In this document: positions 1,308 to 52,402 of the stretch, in pieces
Position numbering within the stretch: position 1 is the first letter of the stretch
How the letters are laid out: each line of letters begins with the position of its first letter
Origin: Epinephelus fuscoguttatus
Taxonomy: Eukaryota > Chordata > Actinopteri > Perciformes > Serranidae
DNA: 64,000 nt
Assembly: GCF_011397635.1 (NCBI RefSeq)
Contig: NC_064760.1
Span: 31,081,856 to 31,145,855 of the forward strand
Direction of reading: 5' to 3'
Position numbers and translations under genes: made by a program
Notes under the pieces: model-generated
The model's input: the letters and a program-made list of their open reading frames with translations, nothing else
Told to the model about the DNA's origin: nothing
Databases searched by the model: none

Positions 1308-4300
1308 CGATACAGGTCCTGGCTGGGACGGAGGACTGGCTGATCCAGAAAGAGACCCAGGAGAGAACCACCAGCAGAATGGAGGGAACGTACGTCTCCA
1401 AGATGAAGAACAGCACGTTTCTACGCAATGCAAAATGCAGCACCAGCTTGGGGTATTGTCCTGTATGAGGAGACACAAACAGACACAGCTTTATTACATT
1501 TGTGCTCTCACATATAACTCCACATGTGAGGGGGACTGTGGGAGATGTAGTGTCCTACCTGTCTCATACACAGCCTCTGACACTGATGTATAGTAGCTCT
1601 CTACGCTGTACTGAGCCAGCCGCAGAATGTCAAGACCCTTCACTGAGTCATTCCCTCTGGTCCAATAGAACACCACATCCTGCAGGTTGTAGCCCCCTGA
1701 CACACACACACACAACGGTTTATAGTTAAAGTTGAATGAATGATCTGCTTAAAATAACAGTGTCAGTTTGATACTCACTACACTGATGATGAAAATGGTG
1801 ATGGTGATGATGAGATGATGGTGATGTATGTCCATCTACACACTTGATGGAGTGGAGGGTTCACACAGGTACTCACAGCTCTCCAGCTGCAGGGTGCACT
1901 CCTGTCTGTCCATGGGATACTTGGTCAGGTCCATGTTGCAGGCGATGGTAGCCGTGATGCTGTTGTGCATTCATAACAAGATCATTAGAACAACTCCCTC
2001 CAACACACTGTTACTCCTTTGATGTCGGACAGGGCAGTTAATAACCAGAGAACACAAAGAACTTTCCTCCCTGAGCAACAACGGAAAGAACAAAGACTCA
2101 TATCCAAAGTGTCAGACATTTCTGCATCTGATGCATTAATTATGTATAAGACTTGGAATTTGCTGACAGTTTCTGAGCACTAGAATCAAAATTATTTAGA
2201 TGATGTATTGCTTACTGAAGAACATCAGTGTTCTATTTCTATACAAAGCAAAATATGCCAATAATATTTTTAAAAAACAACTGACAAACATGGATCTGTA
2301 CAACATAACTATTATATAAAATGTTTTCCCTCTAATCAAGAAGAATAAGGAACATCTTGCACAACACTGCCCTTTCTGTCCTCAGTAAAGCTTTCCAGTC
2401 ATAATAAAGTTTTATATCAGTGTGACATGACAGATTAGACATCAGAACAAATTTTGACTGTGGCCACAGGCAACGAATTTTCCCCACCACAATCTGAACT
2501 GTTTGAAGGGTAGAAAAAACAGTAATTTCAGTGGCATTCCCTTGAGTTATATGACTGAGCGATGATACATAAGTGCTCTTTTTTCTTCCTGTCTTTTTTT
2601 AGCCAAACCAAAGGCCAATTCACGGTTGATTACCACAACAATCATGAAAACAGCATGAAAAAAATCTCAGTAGATTTTTTCTTCCTCGCCTTTCTCTTTT
2701 CATCTCCCTACATTTCCTTTCATTTTAACCTCTTCCAGCTCAGCAGAATCTGAAAAGCTCACGGGCAGGAGTATCAAATGATCAAATGTCAGCGACTGTT
2801 GAATCAATAAACATAAACCTGTACCGTAGGGCATAGAGAACTGTTCCATTGCTGAAGATGCGTATGAGGCGGTTTTCCACCGTGACGTCATGCAGGAAGG
2901 AACGTTTGGAGTCGGGGATGAAGGTGTCAGGGATCCACAGCAGTGACACGAGGCGTCCGTCCACACTGACGCTCTCATTTCCAGGGAACACCAGCCTGGA
3001 GTCACGCCAGCGCTGACGGAGGAAGATGGTCGCAGTGTAGTCCTAAGAAGATATTGTAAAGAAGACTTCTAGTCATTTATTTGTTTCTTCAGTCACTTAT
3101 TCAACCCAGTGGCCCCCAGAAATTTTGCTTGGCCCAATATGGCCACTGAAAATCTTGGGGTGGCCAAAACCTAAAACCATATCTGAGTTTCAGGACTTCC
3201 ATTATGTTGTTGTAGTACAGTTGTATAAAGGTTAGTCATAAACTATCGTAAAACTTCAATTAAACACCTAGTCCCTTTTACTAGCCTTGTGTGGCTACAC
3301 AATTTGACAAATAAACGCCTGTCACAATTAGAGGCCTGCTCTGGTTACCAAGAAGTTCTTCGGATGTATAAAACCAGGTTGTTGGCTACCTCAAATTATG
3401 CGTCCATTCCTGGATTACCCTGTAAATTATTCATATTCCTTCAGTTCTTACGTAAGAGTCCTTAGATCAAAAGAATCAGAAGTGTTCTTCATAGAAATTA
3501 ACACAAGTTGTGAGTTTTGTTTTAACAGGATTGAGTGATGTTGTGTTGGTATGCCGGGTGCCGTAACCCCCAAGTGCCATAACTTATTTTATTCATACTG
3601 GATTAAATAAACAATTTGATTGTCTTTCCCATTTTTGTTGTGCAACAGTTTTGTTTGAAAGGAATTAAAGGCCTGTCGATTTCAGTGATTCAAGCAAATA
3701 ATAGCCCGGGCTATTAATTGAAGTTTTACATTATGTCAAAATGAGGGTTAAAGAATCGCATACTGATGTGCCTTGGTTTCTTGTTTTAGAGTTGATGTTA
3801 CTAATTATCTGATGTGACTAATAATAGTACAGTTGACATTATGAGTTCCACAACAATTCTGTTTTAATGTGTTATGTGTCATGTTTTAGGTGGGTCACTG
3901 TTCTTCAAAAGGCTGGTCGTCCTTTTCCTTAAAAGGACAAATAAACAGCTTTAATTTGACAGAAAACACTGATTGTTAGACACACAATGTTTACTGGAAG
4001 CTAACCCACTAAAGTTTAAAAACACCTCAACAAGGCAAGTCCTGCACTGGGTCTGGTACCTGTGGGTACCCGTCAGGTGACTGGCAAAAAAAAAGTGATT
4101 TGCGGGTGGAATTTTGTCTTAATTTTATTTCTGGTTTCAGTTCTGGGTGAAAAAGGAACATGTGCGTTAGATTTTGCATGTTAGATGATAAATATATTTA
4201 AATAAAATGAGAATAATAATAATTTAATGGAATGTTTTCACATTTTAATCCTCTGATCACTGACTTTGTGTCTTGCCTCTGTCCTCTGCACTAACTGGTT

Positions 4301-33625: not shown

Positions 33626-34976
33626 TTAAACTTCTGTGCCCTCACGATGGTAGATGATTCCTGTGGAGCCCAGTGAGGGGTAGAAATGCCCGTTGGAGCC
33701 ACTGTACTGGCTGAGGATTGGGCTAGTGTAGCCTAGGGAAGAGTGGGTGGGTGAAGAGGAGAGCACAGAGGGAGCTGGCACTTGTGGCACCCACTCTGGG
33801 CCGCCTGAGTTGGGGGAGTAGCTGCTAAAGCTCCCAGGTTGCGCAGGTCTATGAGGCCCATCTAAAGGAAGGTGCAGTGGCCTGTTTAACCCATCACTTC
33901 CCACCTCAGTAGCTGCTGCGGCTGTCACTCCAGACATCTCGGTTAAGAAGCTGCTGAGACAAGGTGCTGGGCCTGATGATGGAGAGGGGATCCTGTCCGC
34001 TGTGGGGGAGATGTTAAGGGAGGTTGAGTGTTTAGGGCTGCCCCTCTCGCTGTCACCTGAATCTGGAGCCCCTGAGCCACTGTCGCCCCCGGAGAGGGAA
34101 TCGGACTTCCTCTTTCTTTTGCGGCGGAAGTTTCCGTTGTCGAACATCTTTTCGCAGTTTGGGTCAAGTGTCCAGTAGTTGCCCTTGCCTGTGATGTGAG
34201 ATGTTGAGATAGTGAGGTTCAATTTAAATAACTTAGCATAACGCAACACGCCAAGAAAAAACTACAGCACATTCAGAAAGCACTGCAAATGATATGAATA
34301 AATCATATAAGTCTTCCCTTACTAGAGAGAGGTATTCATAACAGAAACAAAAACAATCAGAAAAGAAAATATTACCTGGATCATCCTCATCTCTCGGTAC
34401 TTTTTTGAAGCAGTCATTGAGTGACAGGTTGTGTCTGATAGAATTCTGCCAGCCCGCTTTACTCTTGTTGTAGAAAGGGAAGTTGTCAGCCACGTACTGG
34501 TAAATCTGGCTCAATGTCAGTCTCCTGTCTGGCGCCCCGTGGATAGCCATGGCGATGAGAGCCGAGTAAGAGTAAGGCGGCCTGACCAGCTTCATCAGGT
34601 CTTCCTGCGAGGGGAGAGAGAACCAGCTCAGCTCCCCTCCTGGACCCCCAGCTCCGGCAGGACCCAGGTAAGGCCTCTGCATGCCGTAGTGCTGAGGGAC
34701 AAAGGGAGGACCGGGGTTACCAGGTGGGCCGGTAGTAGCCAGATAGGGCGGTGTGTTGATGCTGGAGCCGTTGAACCAGAGGTAAGGGTTTGGGGAAGAG
34801 GTGCTGTACTCGCTCAGGTCGTAGGATGTCGGAGTGGTGCGCTGAGGACTTGGCAGCGAAGGAGGTGGGTAGTAACAGTCACTGTACATGCTGAGCTCAG
34901 GGGGCTCCTGGCCGAGGCTGGGGAACTGTGGGCCACACCGAGGAGGAGACTGGCCCTGGGCCTCAAATGAAGACAT
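33626..34976 (-). CDS. foxi1: Forkhead box protein I1 (two exons)
   Basis: Forkhead transcription factor that in vertebrates controls ionocyte and otic/epibranchial placode fate; it acts in the nucleus. Coding exons are 34376-34976 and 33626-34188 (minus), joined phase 1, giving 387 residues. The start at [16 protein letters not shown] was chosen over an ATG six codons upstream because FoxI1 proteins open this way. The forkhead domain spans about residues 130-225 ([73 protein letters not shown]). The intron lies within the forkhead domain after DDPG. A basic RRKRKRK stretch at about 222-228 is the likely nuclear signal. The C-terminus, [10 protein letters not shown], matches the FoxI1 ending. 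Ser/Pro-rich linkers lie on both sides. The gene looks intact. Confidence 0.95.
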
Positions 34977-36880
34977 TGTGAGATTTCTCCTCACCTCTCA
35001 GAGTCTCCTCTGCACCTTTTGCCCTTAGCTTGTCCTCTCTCTCTAAGCAAATCTTTCAGCAGTGGTTTTGTCGGCCTCCAAAAGTCTTTTTCTTCTTCAC
35101 ACCTTTGCAGGTATTTGAATGTGAGCTGATCCAAATGGTGGTCTTGGAACTTCCAAGTTGTAGGCTCCTCTTCTCCACCCCTGCCTTGTCTGTTTGCCCT
35201 TGCTTTGTCAAGATGTCACCTGTCATACCTGCTTTATCTGTTTCCCTGGAAACGCCCACTGTCTCCTTTGATTGGCTGCTTTTCGCAGGTGAGGAGTCTG
35301 TCCCTGCTTTCTCTGTTTTTTTTTTCCTGCTGTCAGCTAGTTCACTACCTCCAGGGGTTTTGTTCACCCTCAATTAAATATTTTTCCACTCAAGCTGTTA
35401 CTCCAGCATTAATTGAGTTCAGTCATCTGTATCTTTTTTTTTTTGATGAGCATGATGCAAATTCAAACAGACTGAAATAATACTGTTCGTTTATTTAGAT
35501 TGTATACTTTAATAATATTCTTTCTCCAGCATGCTACTGCTGCTGTCATGGACCGCTTAGTCATTATGAAGATAAACAACCAACCACCTACAAGAGAAAG
35601 ATGATTTTGTGGACACTCTGGCTAATGTTTTCCTTTTTAAATGTTTTGGATATATGCAATATTTAATATTACATTACTAATACAGCACAGTACTATTTTC
35701 TGTAAAGGCCGGGCCACACTTATAAGCCTATGTTATAAATAAAAAATGATAATTATGATAAACAAAGCAATAGCAGTCCTGTAATGGCCTCTTTTTACCA
35801 TTTGCAGCACATGCATCATAGAACTAGGAGAAATATGTAACATTACATTTGTAGGAATAGTGGTCTTATTACCTTATTGTGTAAAATATTAAACTGAAAG
35901 TGAAACTTATCTTCCCTCAAAGTCACATTTATTTATTTATTTATTTACTTTTTGAAATATGCATGTGTTTTGGAAGTGCTACTGAGCTGGATAAATGAGA
36001 CTTAGATTGCACTACACTTGTTGTGTTAAAGTTTGTAAACAGATGTTTTGATATAGTTTTGATAAACAAGGTGGTCCCCAATCAATCAATTAATCAATAT
36101 GTCCACCATTTTCAGTGGAGGCATGCAAGAAAACCTGAGTTCATGAATTGAAAGTATGGCATGATTTACAAATGGTAATTCTGTGGGTGAAGTATTACTT
36201 TAAGTTGGAATATGTAGTATTTTATTATTCAGCCAATTCAACTTTAGTCTCTGTAACTGGGACTGAAATGCCAGCCTGTTTTTCTTTTATATGTGTAAGC
36301 TAATATCCTGTTTGATATTTATATTATTACTTTATTATCAAGATAAGATAACATAGCATAACATAACATAACAACATAATTTGTTGTCTGTCAACACTTC
36401 CTGACAGGGGTCGCAGGGGTCGCTGGAGCCTATCCCAGCTGACATCGGGGGATAATGGAAACAAGAACCATAATTAAAAACAAAACAAAACAAAAACAAA
36501 CAAACAAAAAGGCAATAAAATAAAATAATAAATAAGTGTAATAAGTGAATAGTGTAAAAAACAGAGCAGCTAAAACAAGTAAACAGTAAAGAAAAAATGC
36601 AGAGCAATATAGCCTAGTAGGTAAACACCTAAACACACAGGGCAGTGTCATAAGTAAACAGTAAAAAAGCTACATCTATTAAATTGGCAGGCTGATGAAA
36701 TTTGTAAGTGTAGATATTGCACAGTTTAGCATTATTATTAATGTTCCAAAGTCTTGCCGTCACAATGTATCCTCCTGCCTACAGTGGCTGTCTAATATGT
36801 ACAACCCGTTTATGGAATAAGACTGTTGATAATTCATAGGAAGCTGACGTCATCACGAAAATGCGCATTGCGTCGTTTTA
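34977..36880. other. foxi1 upstream region and intergenic DNA
   Basis: Presumed foxi1 5' flank, with no clear TATA box. A short reverse fragment of the SINE-type repeat (GGAGCCTATCCCAGCTGACA) lies at 36425-36444. No other gene was seen. A 105-codon minus frame at 35056-35373 is Lys/Thr/Ser-rich and unsupported. Confidence 0.45.
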
Positions 36881-37291: not shown

Positions 37292-37723
37292 ATGGCCGAT
37301 GCAGAATCACTTCCCGAGCCACCGCAGAGCAGCAGCGACGACGTGTTGGAGATGAAAAGGGATTTGGAGAGACTCATAGAAGACACTGAAAATTTATCAG
37401 GTGTGTTAACGTTACTGTGTCTCATTGCATTGTCACACGGTGTTAGGAAGACTTCAGTTAATATCTTTGCATTCGAAGACTCAGGTTTGGCTTGGAGTTG
37501 TGTTAATACAGATATTATCCCCCTCTGTCCACCTGTAGTGCAGCTCACCTGGATGTGTTATGACATGGCGGCGCTGAAGACCAGTCCTGAGCTGTGGGAC
37601 TCCATGCAGAAACTGGAAGAAGCCCATCATAAATGCAGAGCAGTTGTGTGTGGAGACCAAGAGCAGGAGCCAGAGATGGGCACATGTCCTGATCTTACTG
37701 TCATAGCTACTACTCAGATGTGA
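37292..37723 (+). CDS. syce3: Synaptonemal complex central element protein 3
   Basis: Small component of the central element of the synaptonemal complex, needed for chromosome synapsis in meiosis. Coding exons 37292-37400 and 37539-37723 join in phase (TCA G / TG) to give 97 residues; mammalian SYCE3 is about 88. The core DVLEMKRDLERLIEDTENLS then VQLTWMCYDMAALKTSPELW then DSMQKLEEA corresponds to the SYCE3 pattern (L-DLEKLLEEMEKISVQ-TWM-YDMV-MRT-P-L--SM--LE-A). The first part is predicted helical, as in the family. The ATG directly follows an acceptor (TTTGTTTAG). A 5' untranslated exon probably ends at 36940, before GTAAGT. Poly(A) signals AATAAA lie at 38019-38024 and 38028-38033. The tail after HHKCRAVVCGD is less conserved. 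Confidence 0.88.
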   Translation: MADAESLPEPPQSSSDDVLEMKRDLERLIEDTENLSGVLTLLCLIALSHGVRKTSVNIFAFEDSGLAWSCVNTDIIPLCPPVVQLTWMCYDMAALKTSPELWDSMQKLEEAHHKCRAVVCGDQEQEPEMGTCPDLTVIATTQM

Positions 37724-47780: not shown

Positions 47781-47787
47781 AGAAGTC

Positions 47788-47806
47788 TTTATTTCTAACT
47801 TTTATT
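47788..47806 (-). terminator. Two poly(A) signals after wnt8a ORF2
   Basis: AATAAA on the minus strand at 47801-47806 and 47788-47793, about 135-150 bp below the stop codon. Confidence 0.7.
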
Positions 47807-47938
47807 ATAATCAAACAAACATAATATTCATAAATAGACACAAGTATTTATACAAGGAGACATGGGAAGTGCAGACATTTAACATCTTAATATGGGCTCT
47901 TATTTAACAGACGTCACTGTGATGTAGGAGCTCCTTTT

Positions 47939-49700
47939 TCACTTGGGTCCACGGTATTTCCGTCTAAAGCCGTGCCCATGAGCACCTTCCCTCCTGGCAC
48001 ACACGTGTTTGATCATAACCTGAGAGCAGTCCTCACAGTTCACCGTGCAGCACCAGTGGAATTTGCAGTTGCAGCTGCTCACTACCTCCGTGCGCCTCTC
48101 CTCCACCCTAAGGCCGCATTCATGACACAACCTGCGGCAGCTGCGCCTCTCCCACTGGGTTAAACCCTCTCCGTGCTGCACACACTCCCGGCCCTCGGTC
48201 CCGTACAGCCCCACGCTGGTGTTTCTCCTGCAGTAGTCCGGGGAGTCCTCCAGGTAGATGAGCTCTGTCGGGGCCACGCTGCCAAACGCGTCCACGATAG
48301 CACCAGGGTTGTCCGCGCTGTTGCCAGCCCGCACGCGCTTTTTGTCGATGTCCAGTTTTTGAGCTTGGCTGTGTTTGGTCTTCAAGTAGTTGCCGATTTC
48401 TCTGAAATCTGACAGCTGTGTCCAGCAGGTTTGGACAGTGCAGCTCTCAGACATGCCATGACATCTACAGATGCGCTTCATTGTTGCTCTCACAGCCTGT
48501 TGGAAAACAGGAAAAGTTAATCAGTGCCAAGCCAGCGACCTAAAACGGTGTCATGTAATAAATTCTCGTTGTGCAAACAGTTCTTACCAGCCGTCCAGCT
48601 GCGTTGTTGTGCAGGTTGACAGCAGCCCTGGAGTCTTGACCCGTCTCCTGCGCGTCAACGTACTGTTTGGAAATCCTCTCTCCGAAATCCACGTTATCAC
48701 TGCAGCCACCCCACAGCCAGCCACGACCACCTGCACACAAAATGTCACTTAAAATCAGCACCAACTTTAAATATCGAAAATTATAATTGATCCATAGGTC
48801 GGCCTAAGTTTTGTGCACAACACGTCACAAGCATGTTAAATATTTATGGAAACTTCACCTATTTTTCCATTGTTGGAGACGTCACAGCCGCAGTTATCGA
48901 GTTCCCCCAGACTACAGTTCCTGGTCAGAGTGTACATGACCCCCGCTGCACTGATGGCGTGGACGAAAGACGTCTCTCTGGTGGCTGGAAGAAGAAATAG
49001 GCAAAGAAATTAAAGTAATCAGTGAATATTTAGGAAATCCTCTAATGGTGATCTTTTAAAAATGACTTCGGTGACTTTTTTTTAATTACAAAAAATAAAT
49101 AGAAATGGGCCATTGTATAGGAATGACTACAACACATTATAATTATAATTATAATCCATTTCGGCACATTATGCCCTTTATTTTTGGATATATTCCACAC
49201 ACATTTTACGCATGACGCATCACGTAATTTTTCCTTCAGCATATATGGACTTGTTTTAGAACTTGTATTTACAATTCAAACCTACCGCGTTTTAGTCCTT
49301 TCAGCTGAGTCGCGCTGTCGGGACAGTTCCATCTGTCCCACGCAAACTGGTGTCTGCACTCCTCGATCCCACTCTGTGCACCCACCTGCACGCTTCTTGC
49401 GTAGGTGAGATAGGCCTGCAGGAGAGGCAATGTCATTTTGTGACCTGATTCACATTTGAAAGGTTATCCTAAACTTGTCAGGGTTATCCCAGTAATTAAG
49501 TAGTTTCTTATCTACCTTAGGTCCCGTCATAAGTACGTTACTTGCCACCCTGAGAAAAAAATAGAGGATAAAGAATGAGATTAGTTTTTCTTAAGTCTAC
49601 ACATATAGAAAAGATACAGGTAAACCATGTAGATCTCTTACCAAGCATGTCCTGGGCATATTTTGAACAAAAGGGGCAGGATCCAAAGTATTGAATGCAT
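47939..49700 (-). CDS. wnt8a: Wnt8a, downstream copy (ORF2)
   Basis: Secreted, lipid-modified Wnt ligand of the Wnt8 family; in fish it acts in ventrolateral mesoderm and posterior neural patterning through Frizzled/beta-catenin. Exons (minus): 49642-49700, 49516-49549, 49286-49415, 48859-48984, 48588-48730, 47939-48496. They are in phase and give 349 residues. The leader [17 protein letters not shown] looks like a signal peptide. Family marks: [62 protein letters not shown], and the final Cys-rich part [18 protein letters not shown]. The acylation site is CHGMSESC (Ser182), with Glu where Wnts normally have Gly. Exons of 34, 126 and 143 nt equal those of the upstream copy, so this is a tandem duplicate. 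Intact. Confidence 0.94.
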
Positions 49701-49825
49701 TTTCACATGCACCGTTATCCTTCAAAGTAGAGATGTTGCTATTTTGGCCCTGCGTACTGCAACTTTTGTTTGAATGGAGGACAAATGGAACTCTTGTTCT
49801 TTGTCCCCGAGGTCCGAGAAAGCCG

Positions 49826-49830
49826 ATTGG
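49826..49830 (-). promoter_or_regulatory. CCAAT box ahead of wnt8a ORF2
   Basis: CCAAT within CAACCAATCGG, about 125 bp upstream of the ORF2 ATG. A TTCAAAG match to the Tcf/Lef core (WWCAAAG) lies at 49721-49727. Both are short motifs and only suggest a separate ORF2 promoter. Confidence 0.35.
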
Positions 49831-49986
49831 TTGACGGGTTCAGGAAACGCCTATTGCGCACTTCAAAAGGATGGCATTAGGCTCCACTTTATTTTCTTCC
49901 CATAGGCTGTATGACACCAGGGCACCAATATACAAAATCTTGCCAGTGACAAATCAGTCTGAGTCATGCATATTATAGAAAAAATA

Positions 49987-49992
49987 TTTATT
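49987..49992 (-). terminator. Possible poly(A) signal between the two wnt8a ORFs
   Basis: AATAAA 295 bp below the ORF1 stop and about 290 bp above the ORF2 ATG. It would allow a monocistronic ORF1 message; skipping it would give a bicistronic one. Confidence 0.5.
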
Positions 49993-50286
49993 AGATAGCA
50001 TTTTCAATTAAAAATATACATTTAAAATATTAGACACCTTTCAGACTTCACAGAAGACAGATCCAACAAATTTGATCCATTATCCCTTAAACGCCACCAT
50101 GAACGAGTGAGCATTCGTGGATAGTTTGATTTCTGTACAGAATCAAATCAATAAGATCAAGTGCATTAAATAGCATCAGATGATATAACAGTTGAAATTG
50201 AAATGAACATTTCTGTAATACAGAATAATGCCTATTGATGTCCATATATGAAAAGTGATGAGCATAGTCTTTGCAACCAGTGGCAA

Positions 50287-52288
50287 TCATTGCTGGCGCT
50301 CACGGTGCCTGCGCCTCGTTTTATTGTGTGGTTTTCTTCCACCGTCTTTACGTGTACAGTAATATTTTGTCACAACTTGAGTGCATTTGTCGCACTTCAC
50401 CGTGCAGCACCAGTGAAACTTGCAGTTGCAGCTGCTCACAACATTGATGCGCTTCTCCACCACTCTGAGGCCGCATTCATAGCACAGCCTGCGGCAGCTC
50501 TTTCTCTCCCGCTGGGACATGTTCTTGTTACCCTTCAGACACTCCCGGCCCTCGGTGCCCTGATATCCCAGGCTGTGGTTCTTGACGCAGTAATCCGGGG
50601 AATCCTCCAGGTAAATGAGCTCTGTGCGGGCGATGCTCCGGAGAGCGTGCGCAATGGCTCCTCGGTTGTCCGCGCTGTTTCCAGCCCTCGCCGGCTTCTT
50701 GTCCATCTCCAGTTTCTTTGCATGCTCGTGCTTCAGCTTGAGGTAGTTGCCCACCTCTCTGAAGTCGGCCAGCTGCATCCAGCAGGTTTGGATGCTGCAG
50801 CTCCCAGACACTCCGTGACACTTACAGGCTCTCCTCATGGTAGCTTTGATTGCCTGCCAAGATAGCGAAACAGTTAGTTGGAAATGTAATTAATTGCACT
50901 ACTTCTTCCTTCCAAGATCAGAATCAATGCGTAAATGCCACCAACAAAAGACATTTTTCCCTCCCCGGACCAAGGTTATTAATAAATGTTTCATTCTGAC
51001 AAACTTAAGTGAGTAATAAAAGTAAAATCTTACCAGTCTGCCTGCCTCATTGTTATGCAGGTTGACGGCTGCGCGTGAGTCATGCCCACCTTCCAGCGCG
51101 TCCACAAACTGTTTGGAGATCTTCTCTCCAAACGCCACATTATCACTGCAGCCTCCCCAAATCCATCCTCTACCACCTGGGGATTAAAAATGCACATTTT
51201 TATTCAGTACTAAGAATAAAATGTTCATCTCACATAATCAAATCTAATTGTAAATAGACCACACATGGTGTAGAAATGTACCTGTCTGTCCAATTCTGGA
51301 GTCATCACAGCCGCAGTTGTCAAAGTCTCCCATACTACAGTTCTTGGTGAGCGTGTACATCACTCCAGCCGAGCTGATGGCATGGACAAAAGACGTCTCC
51401 CTCGTGGCTACAATGCAAAGTAAGCAAAATACAATGTTAGGCTTTGCAGCCCAAGTTGGCAACGCAGATGCGCAGTGGTTACGCTCAAATACTGTGCGTA
51501 AAAGGTGCGTAAGCTGTGCGTAAAGGCACGGTTGGAGATTAACAGGGTAACAATGTTGGGCATGTTGGGTGTTTTATTAATGAGGGTCTAGCAAGGAATT
51601 TTATCTTATGATTGTGTCCCCTCTCCATGGAGATCAGAGCGCACAATCCGCCACATCATCCTTTCTGCGTTGGAGGAATAACTTTGTGCAAAAGTGCCTG
51701 TGCAAAGTTGCGTTACTGGAATTGAACTCATCACCACTCCACCCCGATACATGTCCTTCATATGATGCAAATATATGGATACACGTCTCTTACCACTTCG
51801 AAGGCCGTTGTGTGTGGATAATTGGAGCCTGTTTTCTGGGCAGTTCCACCTCTCCCACGCGAACTGGTGTTTACACTCATGTATTCCACTTTGTGCGCCA
51901 ACTTGCACACTGCCGGCATAAGTCAGGAAAGCCTTGGGAGAGGAAAAACGGGAAATGTTAGTCATCGTTGCATTTAATAAATAAGAAAATACATTAATTT
52001 ATTGTAGATTCAGCTAAAACATTTGAATATACAGAGAGGATTTTACGCACAATAAGACAGATAAAAAATGTGTTTACCTTAGGTCCAGTCATGAGGAAGT
52101 TATTCACCGTCCTACAGAAAGGAAACAGAAAAGCCACGTTAATCCCAAGTCATTATACCACCAGCAAACACACATTTCAATGTAGTATTTTTAAATTGAT
52201 TCCACCAAAAGGAAGAAACATACCAAGCAAATGTAAACTGACAGCACATGGACAGAACCATGGCTGGAAGGAGATTCAAAGGTCCCAT
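50287..52288 (-). CDS. wnt8a: Wnt8a, upstream copy (ORF1)
   Basis: Same family and role as the downstream copy. Exons (minus): 52224-52288, 52078-52111, 51794-51932, 51282-51407, 51034-51176, 50287-50853. They are in phase and give 357 residues. The leader [20 protein letters not shown] serves as a signal peptide; a second ATG nine codons on is possible. Motifs: [61 protein letters not shown], and the standard acylation site CHGVSGSC with Ser187. The end is [18 protein letters not shown] then a basic tail rich in Arg. A TATA box sits about 105 bp above the ATG. The gap from this stop to the ORF2 start is 586 bp, same strand. This closely fits the two-ORF wnt8a locus described in zebrafish. 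Confidence 0.95.
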
Positions 52289-52389: not shown

Positions 52390-52402
52390 TGATATTTATA
52401 TG
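52390..52402 (-). promoter_or_regulatory. TATA box of wnt8a ORF1
   Basis: GCATATAAATATC on the minus strand. Transcription would start near 52360-52370, leaving a 5' UTR of about 75 nt before the ATG at 52288. Confidence 0.6.

Follow-up and report, generated by a model that had tools for sequence, protein, structure and literature searches.

A complete tandem wnt8a locus in Epinephelus fuscoguttatus, with a glutamate beside the predicted lipid site of the second gene

The stretch of DNA considered here (the window: 64,000 nucleotides of Epinephelus fuscoguttatus, RefSeq assembly GCF_011397635.1, contig NC_064760.1, positions 31,081,856 to 31,145,855 of the forward strand) carries two intact wnt8a genes, ORF1 and ORF2, which lie head to tail on the minus strand with 586 nt from the stop of the first to the ATG of the second. 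The locus is one more example of the known teleost tandem wnt8a arrangement, in which a short spacer separates two intact Wnt8a genes of the same orientation; that the genes share a message is a reasonable guess, though one that need not hold in every species. As to expression, we think it probable, though well short of assured, that the pair is served by two promoters and two tandem polyadenylation (poly(A)) sites, with partial read-through, and that ORF2 protein is made mostly from a message of its own. The ORF2 protein departs from the usual Wnt pattern at one position, directly beside the serine that is acylated in other Wnts.

Two constrained Wnt8 genes

Each gene is assembled from six exons: ORF1 (52288..50287, minus strand) has 1074 nt of coding sequence for 357 amino acids (aa), and ORF2 (49700..47939, minus strand) has 1050 nt for 349 aa; all 10 introns are GT-AG and there are no internal stops. 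The ORF1 exons are found at 52224..52288 (65 nt, beginning with the ATG at 52288), 52078..52111 (34 nt), 51794..51932 (139 nt), 51282..51407 (126 nt), 51034..51176 (143 nt) and 50287..50853 (567 nt, the coding part of exon 6, with the stop ending at 50287). Those of ORF2 are at 49642..49700 (59 nt, ATG at 49700), 49516..49549 (34 nt), 49286..49415 (130 nt), 48859..48984 (126 nt), 48588..48730 (143 nt) and 47939..48496 (558 nt, the coding part of exon 6, stop ending at 47939). Exons 2, 4 and 5 have the same size in both genes, and exons 3 and 6 are each 9 nt apart. Splicing reproduces in full what an earlier sequence-only reading had proposed for this DNA: two intact six-exon Wnt8 genes on the minus strand, head to tail, 586 bp apart, with identical sizes for exons 2, 4 and 5. 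The gene models are correct, and both genes appear intact and under constraint.

The identity of the two genes, taken by itself, is close to certain. Both products match the Pfam wnt family (PF00110; E 7.2e-93 for ORF1, E 3.9e-90 for ORF2), and the top solved-structure match of both is the Protein Wnt-8 chain 4f0a_B (E 1e-175 and E 7.2e-166), which we take to be the Xenopus protein. Both ORF1 and ORF2 keep all 22 cysteines of the 4f0a stretch to which they align, together with the serine of the Wnt acylation hairpin, a predicted acylation site, and its flanking cysteines. NCBIfam, queried with ORF1 alone, returned no family. Judged on these alignments, the similarity to Wnt genes is not due to chance, and each gene would give a complete secreted ligand of Wnt8a type. 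The two proteins are 65.6% identical (229/349), with nonsynonymous divergence (dN) 0.243 and synonymous divergence (dS) 1.41 by the Nei-Gojobori method (NG86), a relation that indicates purifying selection. Gene conversion between the copies was considered and set aside: third-position identity ranges from 0.37 to 0.70 over 16 windows of 30 codons, slightly higher toward the 3' end, without a sharp block.

Assignment of the pair to wnt8a comes from the rest of the genome (1.047 Gb, 26 contigs), searched with ORF1 as query. The 63 exon matches include, outside the window, one clear Wnt8-type gene, located on contig C16, with a last exon 59% identical to the query. Its neighbours are, on one side, an exon matching acyl-CoA desaturase in the PDB (E 1.4e-36) and, on the other, an exon of factor-inhibiting-HIF (FIH; E 2.3e-41); a neighbourhood of this kind, with scd and hif1an, is presumably that of human WNT8B. 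These flanking exons mark the C16 gene as wnt8b and the window pair as wnt8a, so that the earlier description of a complete two-gene wnt8a locus is upheld by the gene models, by the family matches and by the presence of wnt8b elsewhere. Sequence identity separates Wnt8a from Wnt8b weakly: ORF1 shares 70.1% identity with the Wnt-8a of 7kc4 and 68.5% with the partial C16 protein, and ORF2 64.8% and 64.1%, respectively.

The history of the pair can be approached through trees, the best of which favours, without proving it, a duplication within the fish line. With the C16 wnt8b protein included (partial, its first exon missing), the topology that groups ORF1 with ORF2 is the best of three, with support of 84 and a log-likelihood lead of 5.75 and 5.69 over the two alternatives; bp-RELL (bootstrap proportion by resampling of estimated log-likelihoods) rejects one of the two (0.0315). 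Two results weigh against this history. The approximately unbiased (AU) test keeps both alternatives (p 0.050 and 0.087), and FastTree, run with WNT3/WNT3A outgroups, places ORF2 outside a group of ORF1 and tetrapod Wnt8a, with support of 0.855; this second tree is given less weight because its outgroups are distant (branch 1.27). In the alignment with 4f0a, only 23 columns unite ORF1 and ORF2 against it, and ORF1 alone agrees with 4f0a in 39 columns, ORF2 alone in 29.

A glutamate beside the lipid site of ORF2

The acylation hairpin reads CHGVSGSC in ORF1 and CHGMSESC in ORF2. That is, directly after Ser180, the counterpart of the serine acylated in other Wnts, ORF2 has Glu181 (GAG, 48446..48448, minus strand), at the position where ORF1 has the usual residue, Gly186 (GGG, 50803..50805, minus strand). 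A pattern scan of 36 loci of this genome found 30 hairpins, or 24 distinct ones after removal of 6 double fetches (loci L018 and L032-L036 gave none); glycine follows the serine in 23 of these 24, and glutamate in ORF2 solely, in a scan that misses Wnts whose hairpin exon falls below the genome-search threshold or whose cysteines differ. A glycine here is a near-universal feature of Wnts and not a defining one; ORF1 has it and ORF2 lacks it. The glutamate itself is already in print, and what is new here is one more species and the placement of the change in the second gene.

Lipid modification of the hairpin serine in other Wnts is described in passages of PMC3888416 and PMC4068752. The latter (2014) states, in the passages available, that the glycine is conserved in all Wnts except the Wnt8-like proteins of medaka and zebrafish, which have glutamate, and that attenuated activity is to be expected. 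In the same passages, mouse Wnt3a with arginine at this position (G210R) bound no Fz8; its secretion fell by >90%, most of its reporter activity was gone, and Blue Sepharose retained it poorly. A literature search with six strings of the form CHGxSxSC returned glycine forms only, with no glutamate form among the matches listed. Sequencing error was considered as a source of the substitution: GGG and GAG are one base apart, but the glutamate reported for medaka and zebrafish Wnt8-like in passages of PMC4068752 makes an error unlikely.

Because Glu181 adjoins Ser180, ORF2 probably encodes the weaker of the two ligands. The published Wnt3a work also holds points that pull the other way: in the passages of PMC4068752 the G210R protein was partly active in embryos (24.8% affected), G210A gave a wild-type result in the reporter assay (with the data not shown in that paper), and the changes described are G210R and G210A, with no G210E. 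A bolder proposal, which we hold to be unlikely, though not far-fetched, would make ORF2 an anciently conserved and deliberately weak Wnt: glutamate would lower Porcupine-dependent lipid attachment, and the locus would then make two kinds of Wnt8a, in part from a single RNA, one at full strength and one poor in lipid, the two tuning the range of the gradient or competing for receptors. The residue in any case allows a sharp biochemical test, asking whether a natural Wnt can work with impaired acylation.

Shared message or separate messages

One way to account for expression of the pair is a mixed scheme, the one we think probable. Transcription of ORF1 would be under the control of a TATA promoter near 52400, where a likely TATA box (TATAAA, 52395..52400, minus strand) lies within the 52390-52402 element named in the sequence-only reading. 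The ORF1 message would usually be cut after one of two AATAAA motifs in the spacer (49701..50286, minus strand), candidate signal 1 at 49987..49992 or candidate signal 2 at 49888..49893, the choice between them (49992 or 49893) being suggested by position and motif. Part of transcription would, by analogy with zebrafish and Fugu, continue as far as the poly(A) site of ORF2 (47806/47793; candidate signals AATAAA at 47801..47806 and 47788..47793) and yield a bicistronic RNA. ORF2 protein would come mainly from a separate message starting in a TATA-less CCAAT region at about 49.83-49.71 kb (CCAAT at 49826..49830).

The earlier reading had called the locus probably bicistronic, on the cues of a short spacer, a single poly(A) signal and the lack of a TATA box. 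As a transfer from zebrafish and Fugu this is fair; the DNA of the locus, for its part, does not reveal a shared message, and the cues do not decide the matter. The claim of one spacer AATAAA (49987) is mistaken, the motif at 49893-49888 having been overlooked. The lack of a TATA box in the spacer and the presence of CCAAT (49830; there is also ATTGG at 49929) are as described; vertebrate promoters are frequently without TATA. A shared wnt8a message in this fish fits the DNA and is not proved by it.

Possible signs of a promoter proper to ORF2 are present in the spacer. Of its 15 ATGs, 14 fall between the ORF1 stop and a minimal ATG-TGA upstream frame (49703..49708, 8 nt before the ORF2 ATG), and the 168 nt directly 5' of that frame have zero ATG, which would leave a message begun in this part with an almost clean leader. 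The CpG count rises there, to 8 in 200 nt, a stretch picked after the profile had been viewed. The ATG gap and the CpG rise are weak hints, which make a separate ORF2 promoter the likelier arrangement, if on slender grounds. Chance does tell against reading much into the spacer: a 168-nt gap without ATG also arises in 140/1000 shuffles; the CpG rise is mild, being equalled or exceeded in 322/5993 overlapping 200-nt windows (taken outside wnt8a coding exons, with exons of other genes unmasked); and at least two AATAAA occur in 209/2000 spacer shuffles, so the pair of signals may be accidental.

Two other accounts have to be weighed against partial read-through. The pair may simply be ordinary tandem genes whose messages are entirely separate, read-through being absent or negligible; this is a real contender, to which we would give a minority share of belief. 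It draws on the two AATAAA of the spacer, on the weak hints of a promoter region for ORF2, and on medaka, where, according to passages of PMC3896364, the two Wnt8a genes differ in expression and a bicistronic transcript is speculated to be absent, a speculation that also counts against the mixed scheme. What opposes full separation is the shortness of the spacer here and the bicistronic RNA reported, in the same source, for zebrafish and Fugu; the trait may vary among fish species.

At the other extreme stands an obligate bicistron, in which ORF2 would lack a promoter and the shared message, translated by internal entry or reinitiation, would be the sole source of ORF2 protein. We regard this as very improbable. 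The spacer ATGs show no depletion (15, against a shuffle mean of 16.8), the minimum free energy of the spacer is no better than that of shuffled sequence (z +0.33, n=60), which gives no sign of a structure for internal entry, and no Rfam family is matched at gathering score within the 64-kb window. From these ATGs, the ordinary folding and the lack of an Rfam match it would follow that a shared message should translate ORF2 poorly. The TATA-less spacer and the bicistronic RNAs of zebrafish and Fugu are what such a scheme has in its favour; yet passages of PMC3896364 report, as the sequence-only reading had stated, that zebrafish wnt8a yields a separate transcript for the second gene along with the bicistronic one.

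Duplication of the ORF1 promoter into the spacer was tried as a further source of evidence and left unused; the homology is unconvincing, which itself weighs against the mixed scheme. The best local match between ORF1 upstream sequence and spacer (score 28) is reached by 5/500 shuffles with 400 nt upstream and by 19/500 with 1000 nt, and its spacer side sits 28-57 nt past the ORF1 stop, away from ORF2. With softer scoring and 300 nt on each side, the best score is reached by 108/500 shuffles. An 18-nt CAAT-type match, at almost the same distance from each of the two ATGs, is equalled by two other diagonals.

Two-protein messages are rare in vertebrates, and wnt8a has its role in patterning the early embryo. 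A further fish in which both genes have stayed intact is of use for asking if the shared message has been retained for its function or results from leaky polyadenylation.

Comparison with zebrafish, Fugu and medaka

In passages of PMC3896364, every teleost analysed has two Wnt8a copies, and their tandem order appears very conserved. Zebrafish (Lekven 2001, cited through the same passages) has two tandem Wnt8a genes, as here, both on the Wnt8a1 branch of the tree given there; its RNA forms are known, whereas this fish is known here from its genes alone. The zebrafish ORF2 primer encoding DQAQKL agrees with ORF2 of the window in 5/6 residues (SQAQKL) and with ORF1 in 3/6, but also with 4f0a Wnt-8 in 5/6; neither the second ORF2 primer nor the two ORF1 primers discriminate between the genes. 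For Takifugu rubripes (wnt8.1/wnt8.2), the passages give GenBank record AY628150, named bicistronic mRNA, with frames at 1-1092 and 1552-2604: coding lengths of 1092/1053 nt against 1074/1050 nt here, again in tandem with a short gap, 459 nt in the mRNA record against 586 nt here.

Medaka Wnt8a1/Wnt8a2 (PMC3896364, in part) likewise form a tandem pair, with the doubt about bicistronic RNA already noted. The correspondence of individual genes is less simple. The medaka Wnt8a1 primer encoding ACKCHG matches ORF1 in 6/6 residues and ORF2 in 4/6, whereas the glutamate of ORF2 is found, in the passages of PMC4068752, at the same position of medaka Wnt8-like, which those of PMC3896364 give as the old name of Wnt8a1. 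Either the names have been used differently, or medaka differs.

A broken copy of ORF2 and other features

The genome search also turned up a partial copy of ORF2 on contig C2 (32025659-32026032). It corresponds to window 48137..47786, covering the last part of exon 6 and the 3' region. Identity is 304/347 aligned bases with 32 gap positions (Kimura two-parameter distance, K2P, 0.136; about 12% diverged), and a shift and a stop break the reading frame. The match, without extension on either side, ends in an A-rich stretch, 15 bases past the AATAAA at 47806-47801 and 2 past that at 47793-47788. Such features would be expected of a reverse-transcribed copy truncated at its 5' end, a possible origin; by eye, no target-site duplication is seen in its flanks. 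Because the copy begins inside ORF2 exon 6, it is uninformative on bicistronic RNA. The spacer itself, searched against the genome with simple repeats skipped, matches only itself, and no copied bicistronic message was seen.

GCACTT is a seed match for miR-430. It occurs once in each 3' region, at 50159-50164 for ORF1 and at 47867-47872 for ORF2; at least one is found in 292/2000 shuffles of the former, which is easily chance, and in 16/2000 of the latter, which is less so. The passages of the literature consulted do not name wnt8a as a miR-430 target.

By eye, no gene was recognised in the listed reading frames of the window's flanks (L035, L036 and L040). Within the window, a frame at 37292-37720 (plus strand) matches synaptonemal complex central element protein 3 (PF15191), a forkhead gene (PF00250) lies at 33626-34997 (minus strand), which by eye we take to be FoxI-like, and an exon at 2785-3042 (minus strand) is closest to GABA-A receptor subunit pi (E 1e-32). 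The GABA-A pi exon and the forkhead gene together are, we presume, reminiscent of GABRP-FOXI1 at human 5q35.

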